Positions 4,602 to 45,455 of a DNA stretch of 45,455 bases are shown one piece after another. The notes beneath the pieces are model-generated. The model made no database searches. It was given only the letters and a program-made list of their open reading frames with translations, and was not told the DNA's origin. Within the stretch, counting starts at the first letter, position 1. The number at the start of each line of letters is the position of its first letter. Origin of the DNA: Nitrospirales bacterium. Its GTDB lineage: Bacteria; Nitrospirota; Nitrospiria; Nitrospirales; UBA8639. The stretch covers positions 1 through 45,455 of the forward strand of contig BQIW01000030.1 in assembly GCA_021604105.1 (NCBI GenBank), given 5' to 3'. The position numbers and the translations under genes are program-made.

Positions 4602-5207
4602 CTAAAGGTTTTTGAGGTCCTCTTCATAAACAGGGGAATCTTCTTCATAGCCTTCCGGTAGCTTGTGGGCAATCCCCTTATGGCAATCGATGCAGGTTTT
4701 TCCTTCCCTCATGGCTTTCTGCATTTCACGTTGGGCCACAAGCGACTGGGCGTGCCAGTCCATCGCCTCATACGAATGACAATTCCGGCATTCTTGTGAA
4801 TTATTTTCTTTCATCTCCAGCCAAACTTTGACAGCAAGCGCTTCACGCTTGGCCTCGAATTTTTCTCTCGTGTTGATGGATCCGGTAATTTTACCCCATA
4901 ACTCCCATGTCGCCTTAATTTTCCTGATGACTTTCGGTCCCCACTCTTTGGGCACATGGCAGTCGGCGCAAATGGCGCGTACCCCTTGAGCGTTGGTGAA
5001 GTGGATGGATTGCTGATATTCCGGCACGATGAAATCGGTCATTTCATGGCAGGCGTTGGCGCAGAAGTAAAGCGAATTGGACTCCTCCATGGCGGTGTTG
5101 AACCCCCCCCAGAAAATAATCCCCGCTATCCCGCCAACGATGAAAATCGCTCCCCAGGAATATTTGCTGGTGGGGCTCCAAAACCATTTCCAGAATTTTC
5201 CGAGCAT
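4602..5207 (-). CDS. NapC/NirT/NrfH-type tetrahaem quinol-oxidising cytochrome c
   Basis: A 201-residue cytochrome with one N-terminal membrane anchor (about residues 16-36) and four haem motifs: CANACH (49-54), CADCH (80-84), CRNCH (140-144) and CIDCH (172-176). The last is followed by KGIAHKLP, the family's usual ending. Such proteins take electrons from, or pass them to, the membrane quinone pool and serve a periplasmic multihaem partner. That partner is encoded 33 bases upstream (the octahaem HAO-like protein), so the two form an operon. The first motif is unusual: CX3CH instead of CX2CH, while the following EM keeps the HxM arrangement that in NrfH supplies a haem ligand. The closest functional analogues are cytochrome cM552 (CycB) of ammonia oxidisers and NrfH; which one applies is not decided. 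Confidence 0.9.
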   Translation of the reverse strand: MLGKFWKWFWSPTSKYSWGAIFIVGGIAGIIFWGGFNTAMEESNSLYFCANACHEMTDFIVPEYQQSIHFTNAQGVRAICADCHVPKEWGPKVIRKIKATWELWGKITGSINTREKFEAKREALAVKVWLEMKENNSQECRNCHSYEAMDWHAQSLVAQREMQKAMREGKTCIDCHKGIAHKLPEGYEEDSPVYEEDLKNL

Positions 5208-5240
5208 TGAGTTATGTGAACCCTACATGCGGATTCATGT

Positions 5241-6773
5241 TTATTTCAATGAGTTCTTCCCGTAACGGGATTCAAAACCCTTTCGAACGGCGTCAAGTTG
5301 AGCAGGGTCCATCCCCTCGAAGTACCAGGCATGCCCGGGGATGGGTTTAAAATGCTTTTCGAGTAATGCGTTCGCGTCTTTTTCACCCGCGACTTTTTTG
5401 AGTTCTGGAATGAATTCGAAATAGGTGTGCTTGGCTACTTCATACATCCCATGCCACCACGTGTAATCGGGACCACTCATGGAGGCACCATGCCGCGCTC
5501 GACGACCTTCATGATGCCAGATTTCCCACCAGATCCATTCGATCTTTTCATCGAACGGGGCCGGCGTGATGGTGCCGGCCTTCTTTAAGTCACCCATGAT
5601 GGCGGCAATGGGCTTGGCAAATTTATCGTTATAAAGGTCCACCACTTTATCAAACTGGTTGTAATGGCCCAGTATCACTGAATCCGTGTGACATGCCGTA
5701 CACACATTTTGCATTTTGAGGCGACGTTCTTTCCACGTCAGCACCTCAACCACTGCTGATCCCCTGGCCTTATCTCCAACCTTGGGCAATGGTTGCCCTT
5801 CCGGTACATCAAATTCATTGCCGTCTTTCAGTTTGACAAGATTGTTTTTGACGGAAATGGGTGGCCGCAATGTCCAGGAGATCCGTTCGCCCACATTGTG
5901 TGTCGGCTTTTCTCCTCCCCCGGCGCTCATATGGCAAGTGGCGCAGGTGGGCGCCGCCGAATAATCCACGCCCGCTTCCCATTTATCCGATTCGAGATTC
6001 ATCTCGGTCGTTTTGGCGTGGTAAATAATGCCATGCTTGGATTCGTTATAGACTTCAATCTGAGGATGATCAGGACCGACGTGACATTTTCCGCAGGTAT
6101 CCGGAGTTCGTGCCTGCGCTTTGGAGAAGCGGTGCCGCCCGTGACAAGCCGTACAGGACCCCTTAGACCCGTCTGGATTGATTCGTCCAATCCCGGTGTT
6201 GGGCCAAGTGGTGGGTAGAGGTTTCCCATCTTCACCAATTTCAATGGTTGAGCCGTGACATTGTTTGCATCCGGCGTTCACAGCTTCCGGGCCGCCTACA
6301 ACCTCCCCCAAAAGATTGTCAAATGATGCGAGAATTTCGCCCGCCTTCGAATGATGGGAGCCATCCATCTCTTGGAATTCCGTGGAATGACAGCGTGCAC
6401 AATCCTTGGGCGTTACAATAATGGAGATCAATTGTCCCTTGTGCCTGAACCCGTCCTTGTCTTTCCCATCCGCTTTGTGGCAATCAAGGCAATTCACCCC
6501 TCGTTGCCCATGCCTGCTTTGATTCCATTCCATATAGAGACCCGGGGTATGCTTGCGATGACAGACCACACATTCTTCCCCATTCGGATCACCCCAATCC
6601 TTCCCATATTCACCAGTAGGCATCGCACCCCGAGCTTCCCCAATGTGGGGAAGCAACGTCTTCCCATCCATGATGAGCAGCAGCGTCAGAATGCCGGACA
6701 GGATGAGTATTCCTGTACCCATCCATGCTCCATGGATGACTTTGCTCCAAGCACTCTTGTTCACCGTGTTCAT
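5241..6773 (-). CDS. octahaem hydroxylamine oxidoreductase-like cytochrome c
   Basis: A 510-residue protein with an N-terminal membrane helix or uncleaved signal (15-35) and exactly eight CXXCH motifs (Cys at 68, 95, 125, 169, 207, 227, 277 and 358). This is the haem count and order of the HAO family. After the last haem comes the family signature: HHEGRRARHGASM (420-432) and GPDYTWWHG (434-442). Tyr437 sits where the tyrosine that cross-links the catalytic P460 haem is found in genuine HAO; reductive epsilon-HAO proteins lack it. It has a perfect AGGAGGT ribosome binding site five bases before the ATG. It shares an operon with the tetrahaem quinol cytochrome. The usual haoB and cycA (c554) neighbours of ammonia oxidisers are absent. 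It could oxidise hydroxylamine (or NO/hydrazine-type substrates) or reduce nitrite; the sequence alone does not settle the direction. Confidence 0.9.
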   Translation of the reverse strand: MNTVNKSAWSKVIHGAWMGTGILILSGILTLLLIMDGKTLLPHIGEARGAMPTGEYGKDWGDPNGEECVVCHRKHTPGLYMEWNQSRHGQRGVNCLDCHKADGKDKDGFRHKGQLISIIVTPKDCARCHSTEFQEMDGSHHSKAGEILASFDNLLGEVVGGPEAVNAGCKQCHGSTIEIGEDGKPLPTTWPNTGIGRINPDGSKGSCTACHGRHRFSKAQARTPDTCGKCHVGPDHPQIEVYNESKHGIIYHAKTTEMNLESDKWEAGVDYSAAPTCATCHMSAGGGEKPTHNVGERISWTLRPPISVKNNLVKLKDGNEFDVPEGQPLPKVGDKARGSAVVEVLTWKERRLKMQNVCTACHTDSVILGHYNQFDKVVDLYNDKFAKPIAAIMGDLKKAGTITPAPFDEKIEWIWWEIWHHEGRRARHGASMSGPDYTWWHGMYEVAKHTYFEFIPELKKVAGEKDANALLEKHFKPIPGHAWYFEGMDPAQLDAVRKGFESRYGKNSLK

Positions 6774-6785
6774 GGGTTACCTCCT

Positions 6786-7108
6786 AGAGAAGGACATCAA
6801 GCGAATAATGGATTGGAATTGTTCGGTGGGTGCGAATTCTCATCATCCGGCCATTCGTGTTGTGAGGATCGGTCCCTTTTACCAAACAATCCAGGTTCGT
6901 TCAACTGAATTCCTGAAAGCCGCAAGCCAAAATATTCAATCCACTGATTCTCAAGGATCTATTGCTTTATGCCATGCCGCTCAATTTGGACAAGGGGCAC
7001 AGTGGTTCATATCCTTTTTGGCTCCCTGATTCCATCCTACGATATTTGGGTTTGGGAGGGAACCCTTTTTCAGCTCGAAGGGAAATTGTCACTTACTATT
7101 TACATTGT
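6786..7108. other. leader region of the cytochrome operon, no gene seen
   Basis: About 320 bases lie between the HAO-like gene's ribosome binding site and the first dispersed repeat. No convincing open frame and no clear promoter were found, although the operon promoter should be here. Confidence 0.45.
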
Positions 7109-7323
7109 GGGTCTGTTGAAAAAAGCCGCCAGCGGCGTTCTCGCCATTTTCCCGTGCTCACGTACTACGCGTACGCTCCGCGCGTACAAACGGCTGCGGC
7201 ATTACTGGACGGACCCTTCGGGAAGACTCAGGGCATGCTTTTTTGAACCGACCCGTAGCCTTTGATGAATAATCTCATCCTGCGCAAATTTTCCCTTGAA
7301 CATCCTTATAATTCAACACTCCC
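7109..7323 (+). repeat. dispersed repeat, copy A (core 7109-7254 plus side module)
   Basis: A 146-base core begins GGGTCTGTTGAAAAAAGC and ends GCTTTTTTGAACCGACCC, so the ends are near-perfect inverted repeats. Inside are further GC-rich palindromes (CCGCCAGCGG, CGTACGCTCCGCGCGTAC, CCCTTCGGG). A side module (7255-7323) running to TTCAACACTCCC is shared with copies C and D. It lies 172 bases beyond the 3' end of the DUF3313 gene. It has no coding capacity. Confidence 0.9.
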
Positions 7324-8206: not shown

Positions 8207-8668
8207 AATTCCTCCTTTGACCTCACCCCAACATCCCGAAGGGTGAAATGAATTTTGTTGTCCATTCATGAATAGCCATTCTCATCACAACTTACCTTCC
8301 GGATGTTTTCAGGTAAGCCGACTGACTATCTCTACATTCCAATTTCAGTTCACTGAAGGGCGTGCTCGCCAAATCCTTTTCCTGGCAAAAAGAAAATACC
8401 ATACCGAGATCTTTAAAATCACGTCCCACACAGGCCTTTTTAATCAGAGAACGAGTTTTTCTCTTTATCTTCTTAGGAAATATTTTCCGGCACAGATTTC
8501 CCCTGGGTATGAAAAACGGACCATACTGTTTTCTTGTGCAACCCACTTCTTCCCTATCATCCTGCGGTCTTGACCAAGCTCGGGAGCGGCCCAGATCGGA
8601 ATCCGGACGAATGTGACAACTGTGGGTCAATGCGATTAGGGATTCTTTCCCTTGAGGTTTGCCAAATA
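8207..8668. other. intergenic region, no gene seen
   Basis: This stretch holds the DUF3313 ribosome binding site (around 8212-8218) and presumably its promoter, followed by AT-rich sequence up to repeat copy B. The overlapping open frames on both strands have no start signals or family resemblance. Confidence 0.45.
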
Positions 8669-8791
8669 GGGAGTGTTGAAAAAGGCCGCCAGCGGCCTTC
8701 TCGCCGCGTGGTCGTGCTCACGTACTCCTTCGTACGCTCCGCTCGCCCAAACTGCTGCGGCCTTGCTGGACGAGCCTTTTTGAACACTCCC
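8669..8791 (+). repeat. dispersed repeat, copy B (short form)
   Basis: A 123-base version of the repeat bounded by GGGAGTGTTGAAAAAGG and CCTTTTTGAACACTCCC, complementary apart from one position. The interior keeps CCGCCAGCGG, CTCACGTACTCC and CTGCGGCCTTGCTGGACG. It lacks the CGGACCCTTCGGGAAGACTC part found in the long copies A, D and E. Its terminal bases differ from those copies but are still paired with each other. Confidence 0.88.
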
Positions 8792-19970: not shown

Positions 19971-20159
19971 GGAGTGTTGAATAATAATAATTTCCAAGGG
20001 CATATTAACCCACAGGTACGTTGCATATGAGAGGCCTCGGGGCTGTTCAAAAAAGTTGTCCAGCAAGGCCGCAGTCATTTTTGCGCGCAGAGCGTACTTC
20101 TAGTACGTGAGCACGGAAAAATGGCGAGAACGCCGCTGGCGGCTTTTTTCAACAGCCCC
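19971..20159 (-). repeat. dispersed repeat, copy C (core 20039-20159 plus side module)
   Basis: A 121-base short-form core in reverse orientation, bounded by GGGGCTGTTCAAAAAAG and CTTTTTTCAACAGCCCC. The terminal seven bases on each side are complementary but differ from those of the other copies. The diverged side module starts GGGAGTGTTGAATAAT at 19971. It lies between the convergent zwf and oprB genes. Confidence 0.87.
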
Positions 20160-20244
20160 ATATCCGTTACGGATCGCTCGCGTATAATACCCTCATAGGT
20201 CATCCTCCGAAATGGGTGTTCCGGCACCACGAATTTCCCGACAT

Positions 20245-21785: not shown

Positions 21786-23041
21786 GGGCACCTCTAAAAA
21801 CTACCGACAATGCCCGCCGACTCTGGCATAAGTCCTCGGAAGGAGGATTGACCAATGGCGCTACCCAACCAACTCGGCTTTTTTGATCTTGCCCGCCGCT
21901 ACGAGGCTCTCAGTCACCAGGGTGATCCCTTAGAACGCCTCGCGCAGCAAATCCCCTGGGCTCACTTTTGGAAACCGCTGGAAAAATGTTTGCGCCGCTC
22001 CAAGCGGGAGAAGGGCGGGCGGCCGCCCTTTGAAGCCGTCCTCATGTTCAAAGTTCTCGTCCTGCAAGCCCTCTATAACCTGTCCGATGAGCCAACGGAG
22101 TATCAAATCCGGGATCGGCTCTCCTTCATGCGCTTCTTAGACCTTGATCTCCATCAGCGGATTCCCGATGCCAAAACGATCTGGCTGTTTCGCGAGACCT
22201 TGGCCCAAGCCGGGGTCGTCGAGCGGCTCTTTCAGCAATTTGATAGCTATCCGGCTCAGCAGGGCTTGCAAGCTTGCGGCGGGCAAGTGATCGATGCCTC
22301 GCTGGTCCCGGTCCCCACCCAACGCAACACGCGGGAAGAAAACACCACCCTTCAAGCTGGAGCCTGTCCGGCCGGGTGGGAGGCGCAGCCGGCCAAGCGG
22401 CGCCAGAAAGATACGCAGTCGCGGTGGACCGTCAAGCATGGCGTGAGGCACTATGGCTAAAAGAATCATGTGAATATGGACAACCAGCATAACCTCATTC
22501 GGCGCTATACAGGGACCGATGCGGCGGTGCATGGCAGGCAAGTCCTCGAGGACGTATTGCTGGCCCGGCCCGCAGGTCGTGATGTCTGGGCAGATGCGGC
22601 GTATCGTTCGCAGGCCATCGAAGCCCACCTCACGCGGCGGCAGTTGCGCGCTCGCATTCAGTCCAAAGGCTATCGGCTCACCCCCGTAACGGCCCGGCAG
22701 AAGGCCAGCAATCAGAAGCGTGCGCGGACGCGAGCCCGCGTGGAACATGTCTTCGGCCACCACGTCATGGCCATGGGGGGGCAAACTCTTGCGCACGATT
22801 GGCCTGGTTCGAGCGCGGGCGAAACTCGGACTCCGCAACCTCGCGTATAATTTTCACCGATTCCTCTGGCTGACACGCTCAGCTCATCCGCAACCCGCAT
22901 AAATCGGTGAGTGGGGGAAGAATAGGATGCTCAAACAAGACAAAGGAAGCCCCTCCTCCTCCCGCTCCATCATCCAGTTTCCAGACTCGGCTGACATATC
23001 AACAAGAACACGAGGCACTCCCGGCGTTTTTAGAGGTGTCC
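21786..23041 (+). mobile_element. IS5-family insertion sequence, inactivated
   Basis: A 1256-base element. The left end GGGCACCTCTAAAAAC (21786-21801) and the reverse complement of the right end GGACACCTCTAAAAAC (23026-23041) match at 15 of 16 bases. AAGA flanks both sides (21782-21785 and 23042-23045) as a likely 4-base target duplication; the shared flank can also be read as CAAGAGG, so the exact edge is slightly uncertain. It encodes one DDE transposase, now broken. It sits inside the 3' end of an outer-membrane protein gene and points against it. Confidence 0.85.
21855..22902 (+). pseudogene. IS5-family DDE transposase with a nonsense mutation and a frameshift
   Basis: It starts at an ATG with AGGAGG upstream. 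The N-terminal part (KREKGGRPPFEAVLMFKVLV) and the catalytic residues are recognisable: the first Asp in VIDASLVPVP, the second in VWADAAYRS, and the Glu in RVEHVFGH. In-frame TAA at 22458-22460 replaces the tyrosine codon expected in the conserved GYKNHVN block (it now reads G-stop-KNHVNMDNQHN). Further on, a run of seven G (around 22775-22781) adds one base: the frame leaves at MAMGG and the true ending continues in the next frame as GKLLRTIGLVRARAKLGLRN to the stop at 22902. Both lesions would block a full-length enzyme. Confidence 0.88.
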
Positions 23042-28669: not shown

Positions 28670-28882
28670 GAGTGTTGAATGATAAGGATGTTCAAGGGCA
28701 AATTTGCCCAGGATAAGATTACTCATCAAAGGCTCCGGGACGGTTCAAAAAAGCATGCCCTGAGTCTTCCCGAAGGGTCCGTCCAGCAAGGCCGCAGCCG
28801 TTTGTACGCGCGGAGCCTACGCTGAGTACGTGAGCACGGGAAAATGGCGAGAATGCCGCTGGCGGCTTTTTTCAACAGACCC
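28670..28882 (-). repeat. dispersed repeat, copy D (core 28737-28882 plus side module)
   Basis: A long-form 146-base core in reverse orientation, from GGGACGGTTCAAAAAAGC to CTTTTTTCAACAGACCC, plus the side module 28670-28736 starting GAGTGTTGAATGATAAGG. It is nearly the reverse complement of copy A over its whole length. It sits between the convergent lipoprotein and second DUF3313 genes, 59 bases beyond the latter's stop codon. Confidence 0.9.
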
Positions 28883-33886: not shown

Positions 33887-35971
33887 CTAGTGTCTTCCGG
33901 CGTCAATGCGCGCGAACGCCACCACTACTGAGCGTTCCTGGGCGCGGTACGTCTGACCGGGAATCGCTGGTGAGATTTCCCACGGGACGATGTCCTGCGG
34001 CGAATCACATGCCGTATCGATCCATCGGTGCCAGGTGCCTCCGTCACCGTTGAGAACCGGAGGTAGTTCGAACTCAAGGGGCTCCCAATAGGCGTTTAGA
34101 ATAAAGTGGACAAGGAGTTGGGTTTTGGGAAGTTCAACAGTCAACGCAAGGATGTGTGAATGCGGGCTCCAGTCCGGTTGGTTAAGTTTGACGCCGTGCC
34201 ACGCCTTATTCGCCTGTTGGATCAACTGGTTCAGACTCATCCGTTGCTGCTCTCGTTCAAGGTCCCGCAACAGCCGACGTGCGTTGAGCAGTGTCACGAA
34301 CCGATGGACATCCGCATGCTTCGCGGTCAGGGTCCAATCGAACCAGTTCGTTTCGTTGTCCAGGCAATAGGTGTTGTTGTTGCCGTCCTGCGTGCGCCGT
34401 ACCTCATCGCCCATGAGGATCATAGGCACTCCCACGGAAAGCAGCGTCACGGCCAAAAAATTCTTGACCTGCCGGTTTCGCAGCCGTTCCACGGCCTGGT
34501 CCTCCGTCGGCCCTTCAACCCCGCAGTTCCAGCTTTTGTTGTCATTGGCCCCGTCGCGGTTGTTTTCGCCGTTGGCCTCATTGTGTTTGTCGTTGTAAGA
34601 GACGAGATCGTTGAGCGTGAAGCCGTCATGGCAGGTCACAAAATTCACGCTCTGCTCCGGCTCCCGTTCTTTATGACCATAGATTGCCGGACTGCCGATC
34701 AAACGATCGGCGAAACGTGCCGCCGAACCTTCTTCACATCGGAAGAAATCACGGATATCGTCCCGAAACCGCCCATTCCATTCTTTCCAGCTATCCCCGA
34801 TAAAGGAACCGACCTGGTACAGCCCGGCAGCATCCCAGGCTTCCGCGATGAGTTTCGTTCCGGCCAGGAAAGGGTCGGAATCAATGTCCCAGAGAATGGG
34901 AGGATTCTGTAACGGCCGACCGGCCTCGTCGCGGGAGAGGATCGAAGCAAGGTCGAACCGAAAGCCGTCCACGTGCATCTCATCCACCCAATATCGGAGA
35001 CTGTCCATGATTAAACGACGGACAATCGGTTGGTTGGCATTTAATGTGTTACCCGTCCCGGTATAATTACTGTACCGGGTCCGGTCCTCCTCAAGGATGT
35101 AATAGGCATTATTTTCGAGGCCGCGATAACAGAGCGTGGGTCCATCCTCATTACCTTCGGCAGTGTGATTGTAGACCACATCAAGAATGACTTCGATGCC
35201 CGCTCGATGCAGGGCTTTGACCATGTCGCGGAATTCGTCAACCACTTCGAGCGGATTCTGACGTGAACTATACTGCGGATGCGGCGCGAAGAACGATATG
35301 GGCGCATAGCCCCAATAATTGTTTCGACCCGGGGGGCAATCTTGTGGATCGAAATGGAACACAGGCAGGAGTTCCACAGCCGTGATGCCGAGTTCCTGGA
35401 GATACGGAATTTTTTCAATCATACCGGCGTAGGTCCCCCGTGTCTTCTCCTCGACGCCGGAACTGGGGTGGCGGGTAAACCCGCGCACATGCATCTCGTA
35501 CACAATGGTGCGAATTGCGGGCCGTTTGAGCGGGGTATCCCCCTCCCAATCGTACGCGTCCACATCCACCACCACGCTTTTCATTGCTGTGGGGCAATTG
35601 TCTCCCTGCCTGGATGCCGCGACCCGGCTGTATTGCTTCGGTACGGCCACCGCCTTGCCATAGGGATCGAGCAAGACCTTCTCAGGGTCAAATCGCATTC
35701 CCCGTTGCGGCTCGAACGGCCCGTGGGCACGATATCCGTAGATCTGGCCCGGTCGAAGACCAGGGACGAAGATGTGCCAATAGTGGCCCGTCCGGTTCCT
35801 CCAGGAATCGAGGGGGATACTCGTCGCCGGCTTCGTCTCGTCCACGTCATTGAACAGCAGCAATTCCATGCGGGTGCTATTCTTTGCAAACACGCAGAAA
35901 TTGACCCCTTGAGGCGAAACATTGGCTCCGAGGGGGAAGCTCGTTCCCGGAGTGATCGGCCAGGTTTCCAT
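33887..35971 (-). CDS. glgX: glycogen debranching enzyme GlgX
   Basis: The frame opens at 36151, but the first 60 codons overlap the phosphoketolase gene and look random. The ATG at 35971 begins [16 protein letters not shown], the standard N-terminus, 19 bases after the phosphoketolase stop, giving 694 residues. An N-terminal carbohydrate-binding module (about 1-150) precedes the GH13 barrel with [45 protein letters not shown] and [20 protein letters not shown]. These hold the catalytic Asp and Glu and the transition-state Asp. It hydrolyses alpha-1,6 branches left by glycogen phosphorylase, which is encoded next. Confidence 0.95.
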
Positions 35972-35990
35972 CGTGAAGGTTTCTCTGCCT

Positions 35991-38399
35991 TCAGACGTTG
36001 TCGGATTCCGTAGAAGTTTTTCTTCGACCGGTGGGCGCACGTTGCCCCCATTGCCAACCGGTGATCTCGGGCATATCTTCGCCGTGCTTCGAGATGTATG
36101 TTTTGTGCTCCAAGAGCTTGTCGCGAATCGCCTGCTTGGCATAGGCGGCACGGGATCCGAGTTGCGGCAGCCGATCGATCACGTCACCGACGAGGTGAAA
36201 CCGGTCGAGGTCGTTCATGACTACCATATCGAAGGGCGTGCTCGTCGTGCCTTCTTCCTTGTAGCCGCGCACATGCAGGTTTTTGTGGTTCGTCCGCCGG
36301 TAGGTCAGCCGGTGAATAAGCCATGGGTATCCGTGAAACGCAAAGATGATCGGTTTGTCCTTGGTAAACAGTGCATCGAAGTCCTGATCGGACAGGCCGT
36401 GCGAATGCTCACTCTGTGGCTGCAGTTTCATCAAATTGACGACGTTGATGACGCGAACCTTTAATTCCGGCACATGCGTGCGAAGGAGGTCGACGGCGGC
36501 CAACGTCTCCAGTGTCGGTACATCTCCGCAACAGGCCATGACCACATCGGGGTCTCCCCCTTTATCGTTGCTGGCCCATTCCCAGATTCCGATGCCCGCC
36601 GTGCAGTGTTTGATCGCCTGGTCCATGGTCAACCATTGCGGAGCAGGCTGTTTGCCTGCGACGATGACGTTCACATAATTCCGGCTCCGCAAACAGTGAT
36701 CGGTGACCGACAGGAGTGTGTTGCCGTCCGGTGGTAGATACACGCGCACGACATCCGCTTTCTTGTTCACGACGTGATCGATAAACCCGGGGTCCTGATG
36801 GCTGAATCCGTTATGATCCTGCCGCCAGACGTGAGAGGACAACAGATAATTAAGGGAGGCGATCGGCCGTCGCCATGGAATTTCGTTGCAGACCTTCAGC
36901 CACTTGGCATGCTGGTTGAACATGGAATCGATAATATGGATGAACGCCTCATAGCAGGAGAAAAACCCGTGCCGTCCGCTCAGGAGATACCCTTCCAGCC
37001 ATCCCTGGCATTGGTGCTCACTGAGCATTTCCATCACGCGGCCGTCCGGAGCCAAATGGTCATCGAATGGAAAGCGATCCGCCATCCACGTGCGATTGGT
37101 CACCTCCATGGCATCCTGCCAGCGGTTTGAGTTGTTCTCGTCGGGACTGAACAGACGGAAATTGCGACTTTCCATGTTCCGCTTCATGGTGTCGGCCAGG
37201 AACTTTCCCATGAGGCGGGTGGATTCGGCCATAGTAGCTCCCGGTGTCGTCACCTGGACGGCATAGTCGCGGAAGTCCGGCAAACGCAGATCCCGGAGGA
37301 GGAGACCGCCGTTGGCGTGGGGATTGGCGCTCATGCGGCGTGCGCCCTTCGGGGGAAGATCAGCGAGTTCGGGCTTCAGCTGACCATGTTTATCGAATAA
37401 TTCCTCCGGGTTATAACTTTTCATCCACTTTTCAAGAAGTTTCACGTGCCCGGGCTTTTCATGCATTTCCCCCATCGGCACCTGGTGGCTGCGCCAGTAA
37501 TCCTCGGTCCGTTTGCCGTCGATTTCCTTCGGGCAGGTCCACCCCTTGGGCGAACGAAGGATGATCATCGGCCAGCGTGGTCGCTCCTTTACGCCCTTCG
37601 TCCGTGCCTGGGTCTGGATGTTATGGATTTCTTCCATGCAGGTGTCGATGGTCGCCGCCATGAGCTGATGCATCTTGGTCGGATCACTGCCCTCGACAAA
37701 ATGGGGCGTATAGCCGTAACCGCGGAAGAGCTGGTCCAATTCTTCGTGGCTGATACGTGCCAGCACGCAAGGGTTGGCGATCTTGTACCCGTTCAGGTGC
37801 AGGATCGGCAGCACGGCGCCGTCGGTTGCGGGGTTAAGGAACTTGTTGGAGTGCCAGGAGGTCGCCAGCGCTCCGGTTTCAGCCTCGCCGTCGCCGACAA
37901 CGCAGGCGACGACCAGGTCTGGATTGTCATAGGCAGCCCCGTAGGCATGAGAGACGGCATACCCCAATTCGCCGCCTTCGTGAATTGAGCCGGGGGTCTC
38001 GGGCGCCACATGGCTGGGAATGCCTCCAGGGAACGAGAACTGCTTGAACAGCTGCTTCATGCCTTCCTCGTCCTGTGGGATATTTGGATAGACTTCCGAG
38101 TAGGTGCCTTCCATGTAGGCATTGGCGACGATGCCTGGACCGCCATGGCCCGGACCGATAATGTAGATCATATTGAGGTCTCGTGCCTTGATCGCTCGAT
38201 TCAGATGGGCATAGATGAAATTCAATCCGGGCGTTGTCCCCCAGTGACCGAGAAGCCTTGGTTTGATGTGCTCTTTGGTCAACGTCTTTTTCAATAACGG
38301 GTTGTCATACAAATAGATTTGTCCGACTGACAAATAATTTGCGGCACGCCAATAGGCATTGATCAAGTCCAGTTCTTTTTTTGATAACGTATTCGACAT
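35991..38399 (-). CDS. xfp: xylulose-5-phosphate/fructose-6-phosphate phosphoketolase
   Basis: A thiamine-diphosphate enzyme of 802 residues that splits xylulose 5-phosphate (and often fructose 6-phosphate) with phosphate into acetyl phosphate and a smaller sugar phosphate. The start at 38399 has AAAGGAGG five bases before the ATG. Visible motifs are GPGHGGP (82-88), the ThDP loop GDGEAETG (169-176), [10 protein letters not shown], and in the second half [20 protein letters not shown] and [13 protein letters not shown]. Length and motifs match the family closely. The product is the substrate of acetate kinase, encoded 173 bases upstream in the same run. Confidence 0.95.
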
Positions 38400-38572
38400 G
38401 CTGTCCTCCTTTAATTTGACATCATTCAGCTTGAACACCTACTCAAGATAAATATGAATCCTCCGGTTTAAGTGTGGGGAAATTCCCGGGACAATATGTG
38501 AGACCCTACGCCGACACATTCCTCGCCTTTAAAAGGGAAAGTTGGGCGAGGGACAAACGGATTCATCGGAAC

Positions 38573-45164: not shown

Positions 45165-45304
45165 TACCGCTTAGGCCATCTCCTCCTCGTTCTCTTTTCC
45201 CTCAATTGTCTAAAAAAATCAAATCGTTCATACGGATCTCTCATCGGTGCTCACGGTTCAATAAACTATCCTTCTCGTTGATCGTCACGCTTTTTGGCTT
45301 GCTT

Positions 45305-45450
45305 GGGTCGGTTCAAAAAAGCCGCCAGCGGCGTTCTCGCCATTTTCCCGTGCTCACGTACTCAGCGTACGCTCCGCGCGTACAAACGGCTGCGGCCTTG
45401 CTGGACGGACCCTTCGGGAAGACTCAGGGCATGCTTTTTTGAACCGACCC
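45305..45450 (+). repeat. dispersed repeat, copy E (long form, at window end)
   Basis: A 146-base core whose ends GGGTCGGTTCAAAAAAGC and GCTTTTTTGAACCGACCC are perfect inverted repeats of 18 bases. The interior is nearly identical to copy A. The last bases of the window (GGAGC) match the start of the side module seen in copies A and D, so the element probably continues beyond the edge. It lies 140 bases after the histidine phosphatase gene. Confidence 0.9.
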
Positions 45451-45455
45451 GGAGC

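Follow-up and report, generated by a model that had tools for sequence, protein, structure and literature searches.

The octahaem cytochrome-NapC gene pair of a Nitrospirales genome: a conserved tyrosine outside the P460 cross-link column and a probable reductive role

What does a member of the HAO family do in a canonical nitrite oxidiser? The question is raised by two minus-strand genes in the window analysed here, a stretch of 45,455 nt (contig BQIW01000030.1) from a Nitrospirales bacterium: an octahaem c-type cytochrome (OCC) gene at 5241-6773, and a NapC/NirT-type tetrahaem quinol dehydrogenase gene at 4602-5207, which begins 33 nt downstream of the OCC stop codon. An earlier note on this DNA described the pair as an “oxidative” active site combined with a quinone-linked operon, and offered two interpretations, a hydroxylamine-oxidising enzyme feeding the quinone pool or a nitrite reductase. 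The two-gene quinone-linked operon is borne out by the analysis below; the oxidative active site is not, since the tyrosine on which it was based falls outside the relevant alignment column and occurs clade-wide, and the nitrite reductase alternative is now preferred over the oxidative one. The pair is of a known kind, a reductive HAO-family enzyme with NapC, and has a published counterpart in lineage IV Nitrospira.

Both open reading frames were confirmed, at 510 aa for OCC and 201 aa for the NapC-type protein. OCC has an N-terminal signal or anchor helix and eight CXXCH motifs, a number not due to chance: shuffling the same residues 2000 times gave a mean of 0.02 and a maximum of 1. With its match to the Pfam HAO-family domain PF13447 and the HAO fold of its catalytic half, it is an HAO-family octahaem cytochrome in the broad sense, and corresponds to the gene named “ONR” in papers on Nitrospirales, an HAO-family member without the P460 tyrosine. 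Its best PDB sequence match is 4qo5 (1.6e-45), the Ignicoccus hospitalis octahaem cytochrome IhOCC, with HAO and HAOr at about 1e-17. The AlphaFold model, which contains no haems, has a mean pLDDT of 72.6; whole-chain TM-scores are low (0.35), while the catalytic half aligns well, again best with 4qo5 (Z 14.3, 3.3 Å over 226 residues) and with HAO close behind. Like OCC, this closest match by sequence and model has no tyrosine at the key site; unlike OCC, it is archaeal, has a tryptophan at the Tyr437 position and carries larger insertions. Identity with the Thioalkalivibrio nitrite reductase type (TvNiR) was also considered and ruled against, all eight OCC motifs being CXXCH with no CXXCK; there were no TvNiR chains among the PDB sequence matches.

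Much depends on whether Tyr437 is the P460 cross-link residue. The motif in which the earlier note placed it, GPDYTWWHG, is present (residues 435-442, PDYTWWHG, are encoded at 5448-5471 on the minus strand, with Tyr437 at 5463-5465 and Trp439 at 5457-5459). In Nitrosomonas europaea HAO (NeHAO) the cross-linking Tyr467 is the tyrosine of GWTYTEG, by counting W465-T466-Y467-T468 in PDB 1fgj; in comammox HAO the aromatic residue before TYT varies (Tyr or Phe) and the TYT tyrosine is constant. First alignments set Tyr437 of the window on Trp465 and Trp439 on Tyr467. With hhalign, a profile of oxidative HAO only put Tyr437 on the cross-linking tyrosine, at the price of several gaps, and adding HAOr returned Trp439 to that column; we judge the first of these registers to be weaker evidence than the HAOr-linked one.

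The register was decided by ungapped offset scoring on a panel of anammox HAO-family proteins. Between HAOr and the OCC clade, the gap-free alignment sets the first Trp of the HAOr WWW on Trp439 (scores +17 to +42, other offsets below -20); between HAOr and comammox HAO, gap-free over 64 residues, the same Trp falls on the cross-linking tyrosine (+26 to +28, others below -38). When OCC is scored ungapped directly against oxidative HAO, the values hardly differ from noise. In comparisons with NeHAO and several anammox oxidative enzymes, a loop that differs by one residue makes either Trp439 or Trp440 the equivalent residue, according to which side of the loop serves as anchor; twice the residue equivalent to Thr438 took this place, and the one equivalent to Tyr437 never did. 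Tyr437 is accordingly rejected as the P460 cross-link residue, contrary to the earlier assignment: the ungapped HAOr registers put Trp439 there, two residues away. A short tyrosine motif can thus be misread by two residues.

The wider clade gives the same picture. Among 88 OCC rows, the cross-link column contains Trp in 64, His in 19, Gln in two, Phe in one and Tyr in none (two rows are incomplete or masked), with His seen in the sister OCC groups (PDYTHWHG). A joint MAFFT alignment of these rows with five HAO slipped at the C-terminus and was therefore used for OCC columns only. Tyr437 itself is present in 81 of the 88, including phyla without nitrification, and the clade bearing it spans Geobacter, Desulfomonile, Thiomargarita, Verrucomicrobia and others. 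The Asp235-His236 pair (codons at 6066-6071, minus strand), common to oxidative and reductive members, is also kept, Asp235 being invariant and His236 present in 84 rows. Judged by alignment, Tyr437 is a general signature of the OCC clade and not the cross-link tyrosine; with no tyrosine in the cross-link column, OCC is left without an oxidative signature. A false lead is thereby removed, namely an “oxidative” HAO signature in a canonical nitrite oxidiser. Ancestral reconstruction published in 2025 places His at the key site of reductive HAO-like proteins, with Tyr arising in the anammox/AOB clade (PMC12758564).

Could OCC nonetheless work oxidatively, detoxifying hydroxylamine (or NO, or hydrazine) and passing the electrons to the quinone pool? 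The quinone pool of Nitrospira is menaquinone; if this holds here, hydroxylamine would have to pass its electrons uphill under standard conditions. The usual partners haoB and cycA (c554) are absent from the window, as the earlier note had remarked, and AMO was not found in the window's genome by a search in which three comammox control genomes were positive. Most non-anammox members of the family are assigned to the reductive form by the same ancestral reconstruction (PMC12758564). A precedent for oxidation does exist in the native orange octahaem cytochrome of Guaymas Basin Beggiatoaceae, which in vitro oxidises hydroxylamine and hydrazine as well as reducing nitrite (PMC6449678). Set against the missing cross-link tyrosine and the other points above, an oxidative use seems very improbable, and the sequence now gives no reason to propose an enzyme that oxidises hydroxylamine and feeds the quinone pool. 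Since the native Beggiatoaceae cytochrome works both ways, sequence is not a sure guide to the direction in which OCC runs.

The partner protein, called “NrfH-like” in the earlier note, is indeed tetrahaem, with four haems and a single N-terminal hydrophobic helix as anchor, but resembles NapC/NirT rather than NrfH. It contains a PF03264 domain (235 bits) and scores 261 bits against TIGR02161, under the curated cut-off of 310.6, versus 44 bits against the NrfH model TIGR03153 (cut-off 134.2); identity as NrfH was rejected on the latter score. Its first haem motif, CANACH (5046-5063, minus strand), is CX3CH in place of CXXCH, as in five of the six genomes of this family, f1 (CANACH, CGNACH or CGNVCH; the window, L002, L003, L004 and L006), with CXXCH in L005; CymA of Rhodoferax and ImcH provide precedents (PMC6295460). 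It is the sole convincing multihaem partner in the window, the other two-motif ORF being only a 91-codon frame, and NapC adjoins OCC in all six f1 genomes that carry an OCC gene. NapC neighbours also occur with OCCs of other branches (Shewanella, Aestuariirhabdus, Thiohalocapsa, Sedimenticola and Thiodiazotropha endolucinida), a scattering which indicates that the pairing arose more than once or has often been lost. In Sedimenticola endophacoides a second, diverged OCC (RRARMAASMMGPDITHWEG) lies on the opposite strand near the NapC-linked one (L091:11527-12987).

The pair probably forms a two-component, quinol-dependent periplasmic N-oxide reductase, most likely converting nitrite to ammonium. 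We infer the electron route, direction, substrate and physiological setting as follows. The membrane-anchored NapC-type cytochrome would take electrons from the quinol pool and hand them to OCC, which has the HAO-family fold and, by the haem presumed to be catalytic, the Asp-His pair. With Trp439 in place of a haem-linked tyrosine, this haem would be an ordinary one, and on our proposal should run in the reducing direction. OCC would then reduce nitrite to ammonium, perhaps leaking hydroxylamine or NO. In a nitrite oxidiser, such a system may come into play under oxygen shortage, serving as an electron sink, an ammonium source, or both. OCC has the sequence features of a reductive HAO-family enzyme, a residue other than tyrosine at the key site and a quinol cytochrome partner, and its activity is predicted from these. 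Counting against the proposal are the dual activity of the Beggiatoaceae cytochrome and the slight nitrite reductase activity of its recombinant form (PMC6449678), close gammaproteobacterial homologues that lack NapC (see below), the register from the oxidative-HAO-only profile and the near-noise direct scores.

Several characterised or proposed systems can be compared with this arrangement. NeHAO, which works with HaoB, c554 and cM552, shares with OCC the fold, eight haems and the Asp-His pair; OCC differs in lacking Tyr467, P460 and these partners, and in lying on another branch of the tree. Anammox HAOr (kustc0458, PDB 6h5l), a nitrite reductase although it has no cross-link (PMC12485887, PMC12758564), is like OCC in its HAO fold, its Trp at the key site and its gap-free C-terminal alignment, and unlike it in belonging to a different subclade, using kustc0457 as redox partner and producing NO (PMC12485887). 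Campylobacterota HAO, also without the tyrosine, reduces nitrite too, according to work cited in PMC9213671, so that tyrosine-less family members have proved to be nitrite reducers where assayed. In the reverse HURM pathway of Nautilia, HaoA with NapC/CycB was proposed, with expression data, to act as nitrite reductase (PMC3701875); like the window pair, this couples a tyrosine-less HAO-family enzyme to a NapC-family quinol cytochrome. The closest parallel is the ONR-NapC system of lineage IV, from the same order, with an octahaem gene, adjoining NapC and no petBC: it is the same system, and an electron route from NapC to ONR has been proposed for it (PMC12342949).

Where did the gene come from? 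A genome scan yielded more than 550 relatives. In the tree, built without Campylobacterota epsilon-HAO and BOGUAY_0691 (the Beggiatoaceae orange cytochrome), the HAO/HAOr and OCC rows stand apart with support 99, OCC grouping with non-P460 octahaem cytochromes, away from HAO; epsilon-HAO, the type of the Nautilia system, are placed by PMC9213671 in clade II of the family, apart from OCC. The window genome, of the same order as comammox genomes but a different family (UBA8639), is presumably lineage IV, the OCC-NapC pair having been reported only there (PMC12342949). Its OCC and those of the other lineage IV genomes, six in all, cluster together and are nested among sulfur-oxidising Gammaproteobacteria, in a clade with proteins from Chromatiaceae, Thiodiazotropha, Marithrix and Thiomargarita. 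OCCs from another Nitrospirales family (f3) form a separate clade; with few exceptions a cytochrome b gene adjoins them, and this locus is the published ONR-petBC. A single clade uniting lineage IV OCC with these petB-linked genes was rejected (AU p 1e-8), and with it the identification of the window OCC as a petB-linked ONR of the N. moscoviensis type. The lineage IV pairing was thus already known from a 2025 publication that treats all Nitrospirales ONR as one (PMC12342949); what is new here is that the lineage IV and f3 genes are not one clade.

The simplest reading is that the two Nitrospirales “ONR” genes were acquired separately, with sulfur-oxidising Gammaproteobacteria as the exchange partners of lineage IV; the direction of transfer is not proven. 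This suggests two systems wired to different electron donors, petB and NapC, which bears on whether marine-type Nitrospira make ammonium from nitrite once oxygen runs out. That a nitrite oxidiser took OCC from these Gammaproteobacteria, paired it with NapC and uses it to oxidise hydroxylamine or NO into the quinone pool without P460 is a long shot. One f3 genome, G077, has two such genes, an OCC from the wider window group, with 60% identity (L123), and an ONR of the petB-linked type (G077:C122:4049-4795). G034 has, immediately upstream of its OCC gene, a gene for a cytochrome with seven CXXCH motifs (L120:7242-8042).

Another possibility keeps this chemistry but gives it an assimilatory purpose: OCC would supply biosynthesis with ammonium derived from nitrite, the role put forward for ONR in N. 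moscoviensis and strain NJ1. The ONR of lineage II lies near amtB, glnK and glnA, and its expression has been seen when ammonium is absent (PMC5767232, PMC12342949), and AmtB, Rieske and cytochrome b genes precede OCC in one f3 genome (G056). The lineage IV gene, however, is of separate origin, with neither N-assimilation genes nor petBC beside it, and the window's genome has a separate NirA-like reductase gene with an adjoining formate/nitrite transporter gene. An assimilatory role is conceivable but rather unlikely. Neither an NrfA-type reductase nor Hcp (hybrid cluster protein) was found in the window's genome.

The gammaproteobacterial homologues raise a different question, that of substrate. 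They adjoin the flavoprotein gene of flavocytochrome c sulfide dehydrogenase, which is frequently accompanied by one for a dihaem cytochrome (L019, L026, L031, L040, L041), and none of the close ones has NapC beside it. Such neighbours, and the proposal that related Desulfobacterota proteins of the HAO family reduce sulfur (PMC9213671), could mean that OCC naturally acts on a sulfur compound or another oxyanion, with N-oxide activity a side reaction. For an organism that lives from nitrite, in an order whose other OCC clade sits by ammonium transport genes, this appears distinctly unlikely. The Thiomargarita and Marithrix homologues, 64-66% identical to the window OCC, share with it a supported 32-member clade, to which BOGUAY_0691 probably also belongs; the primer pattern of BOGUAY_0691 was looked for in four genomes and not found. 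The native BOGUAY_0691 protein reduces nitrite, whereas the recombinant form showed little nitrite reductase activity (PMC6449678); the Thiomargarita and Marithrix homologues, unlike the window OCC, have no adjoining NapC.

As to setting, two relatives (G015 and G017) have the OCC-NapC pair inside a glycogen-use cluster, flanked by phosphoketolase and glgX (L119:8122-10308, L122:7223-9410). In the window phosphoketolase and glgX are next to each other at 33887-38438, on the same contig and about 29 kb from the pair (4602-6773). Such proximity would suit anoxic use of stored glycogen, but is only a hint, because the pair sits elsewhere in two other genomes. An intergenic repeat is also scattered through the window, its copies being about 60-210 nt long, in either orientation and 83-97% alike (7108-7321, 8668-8727, 20058-20160, 28670-28882 and 45304-45455). 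One copy lies just upstream of the OCC gene, and the repeat may have mediated rearrangement. A transposase-like gene at 21855-22850 appears to be split into two frames (21855-22460 and 22470-22850).
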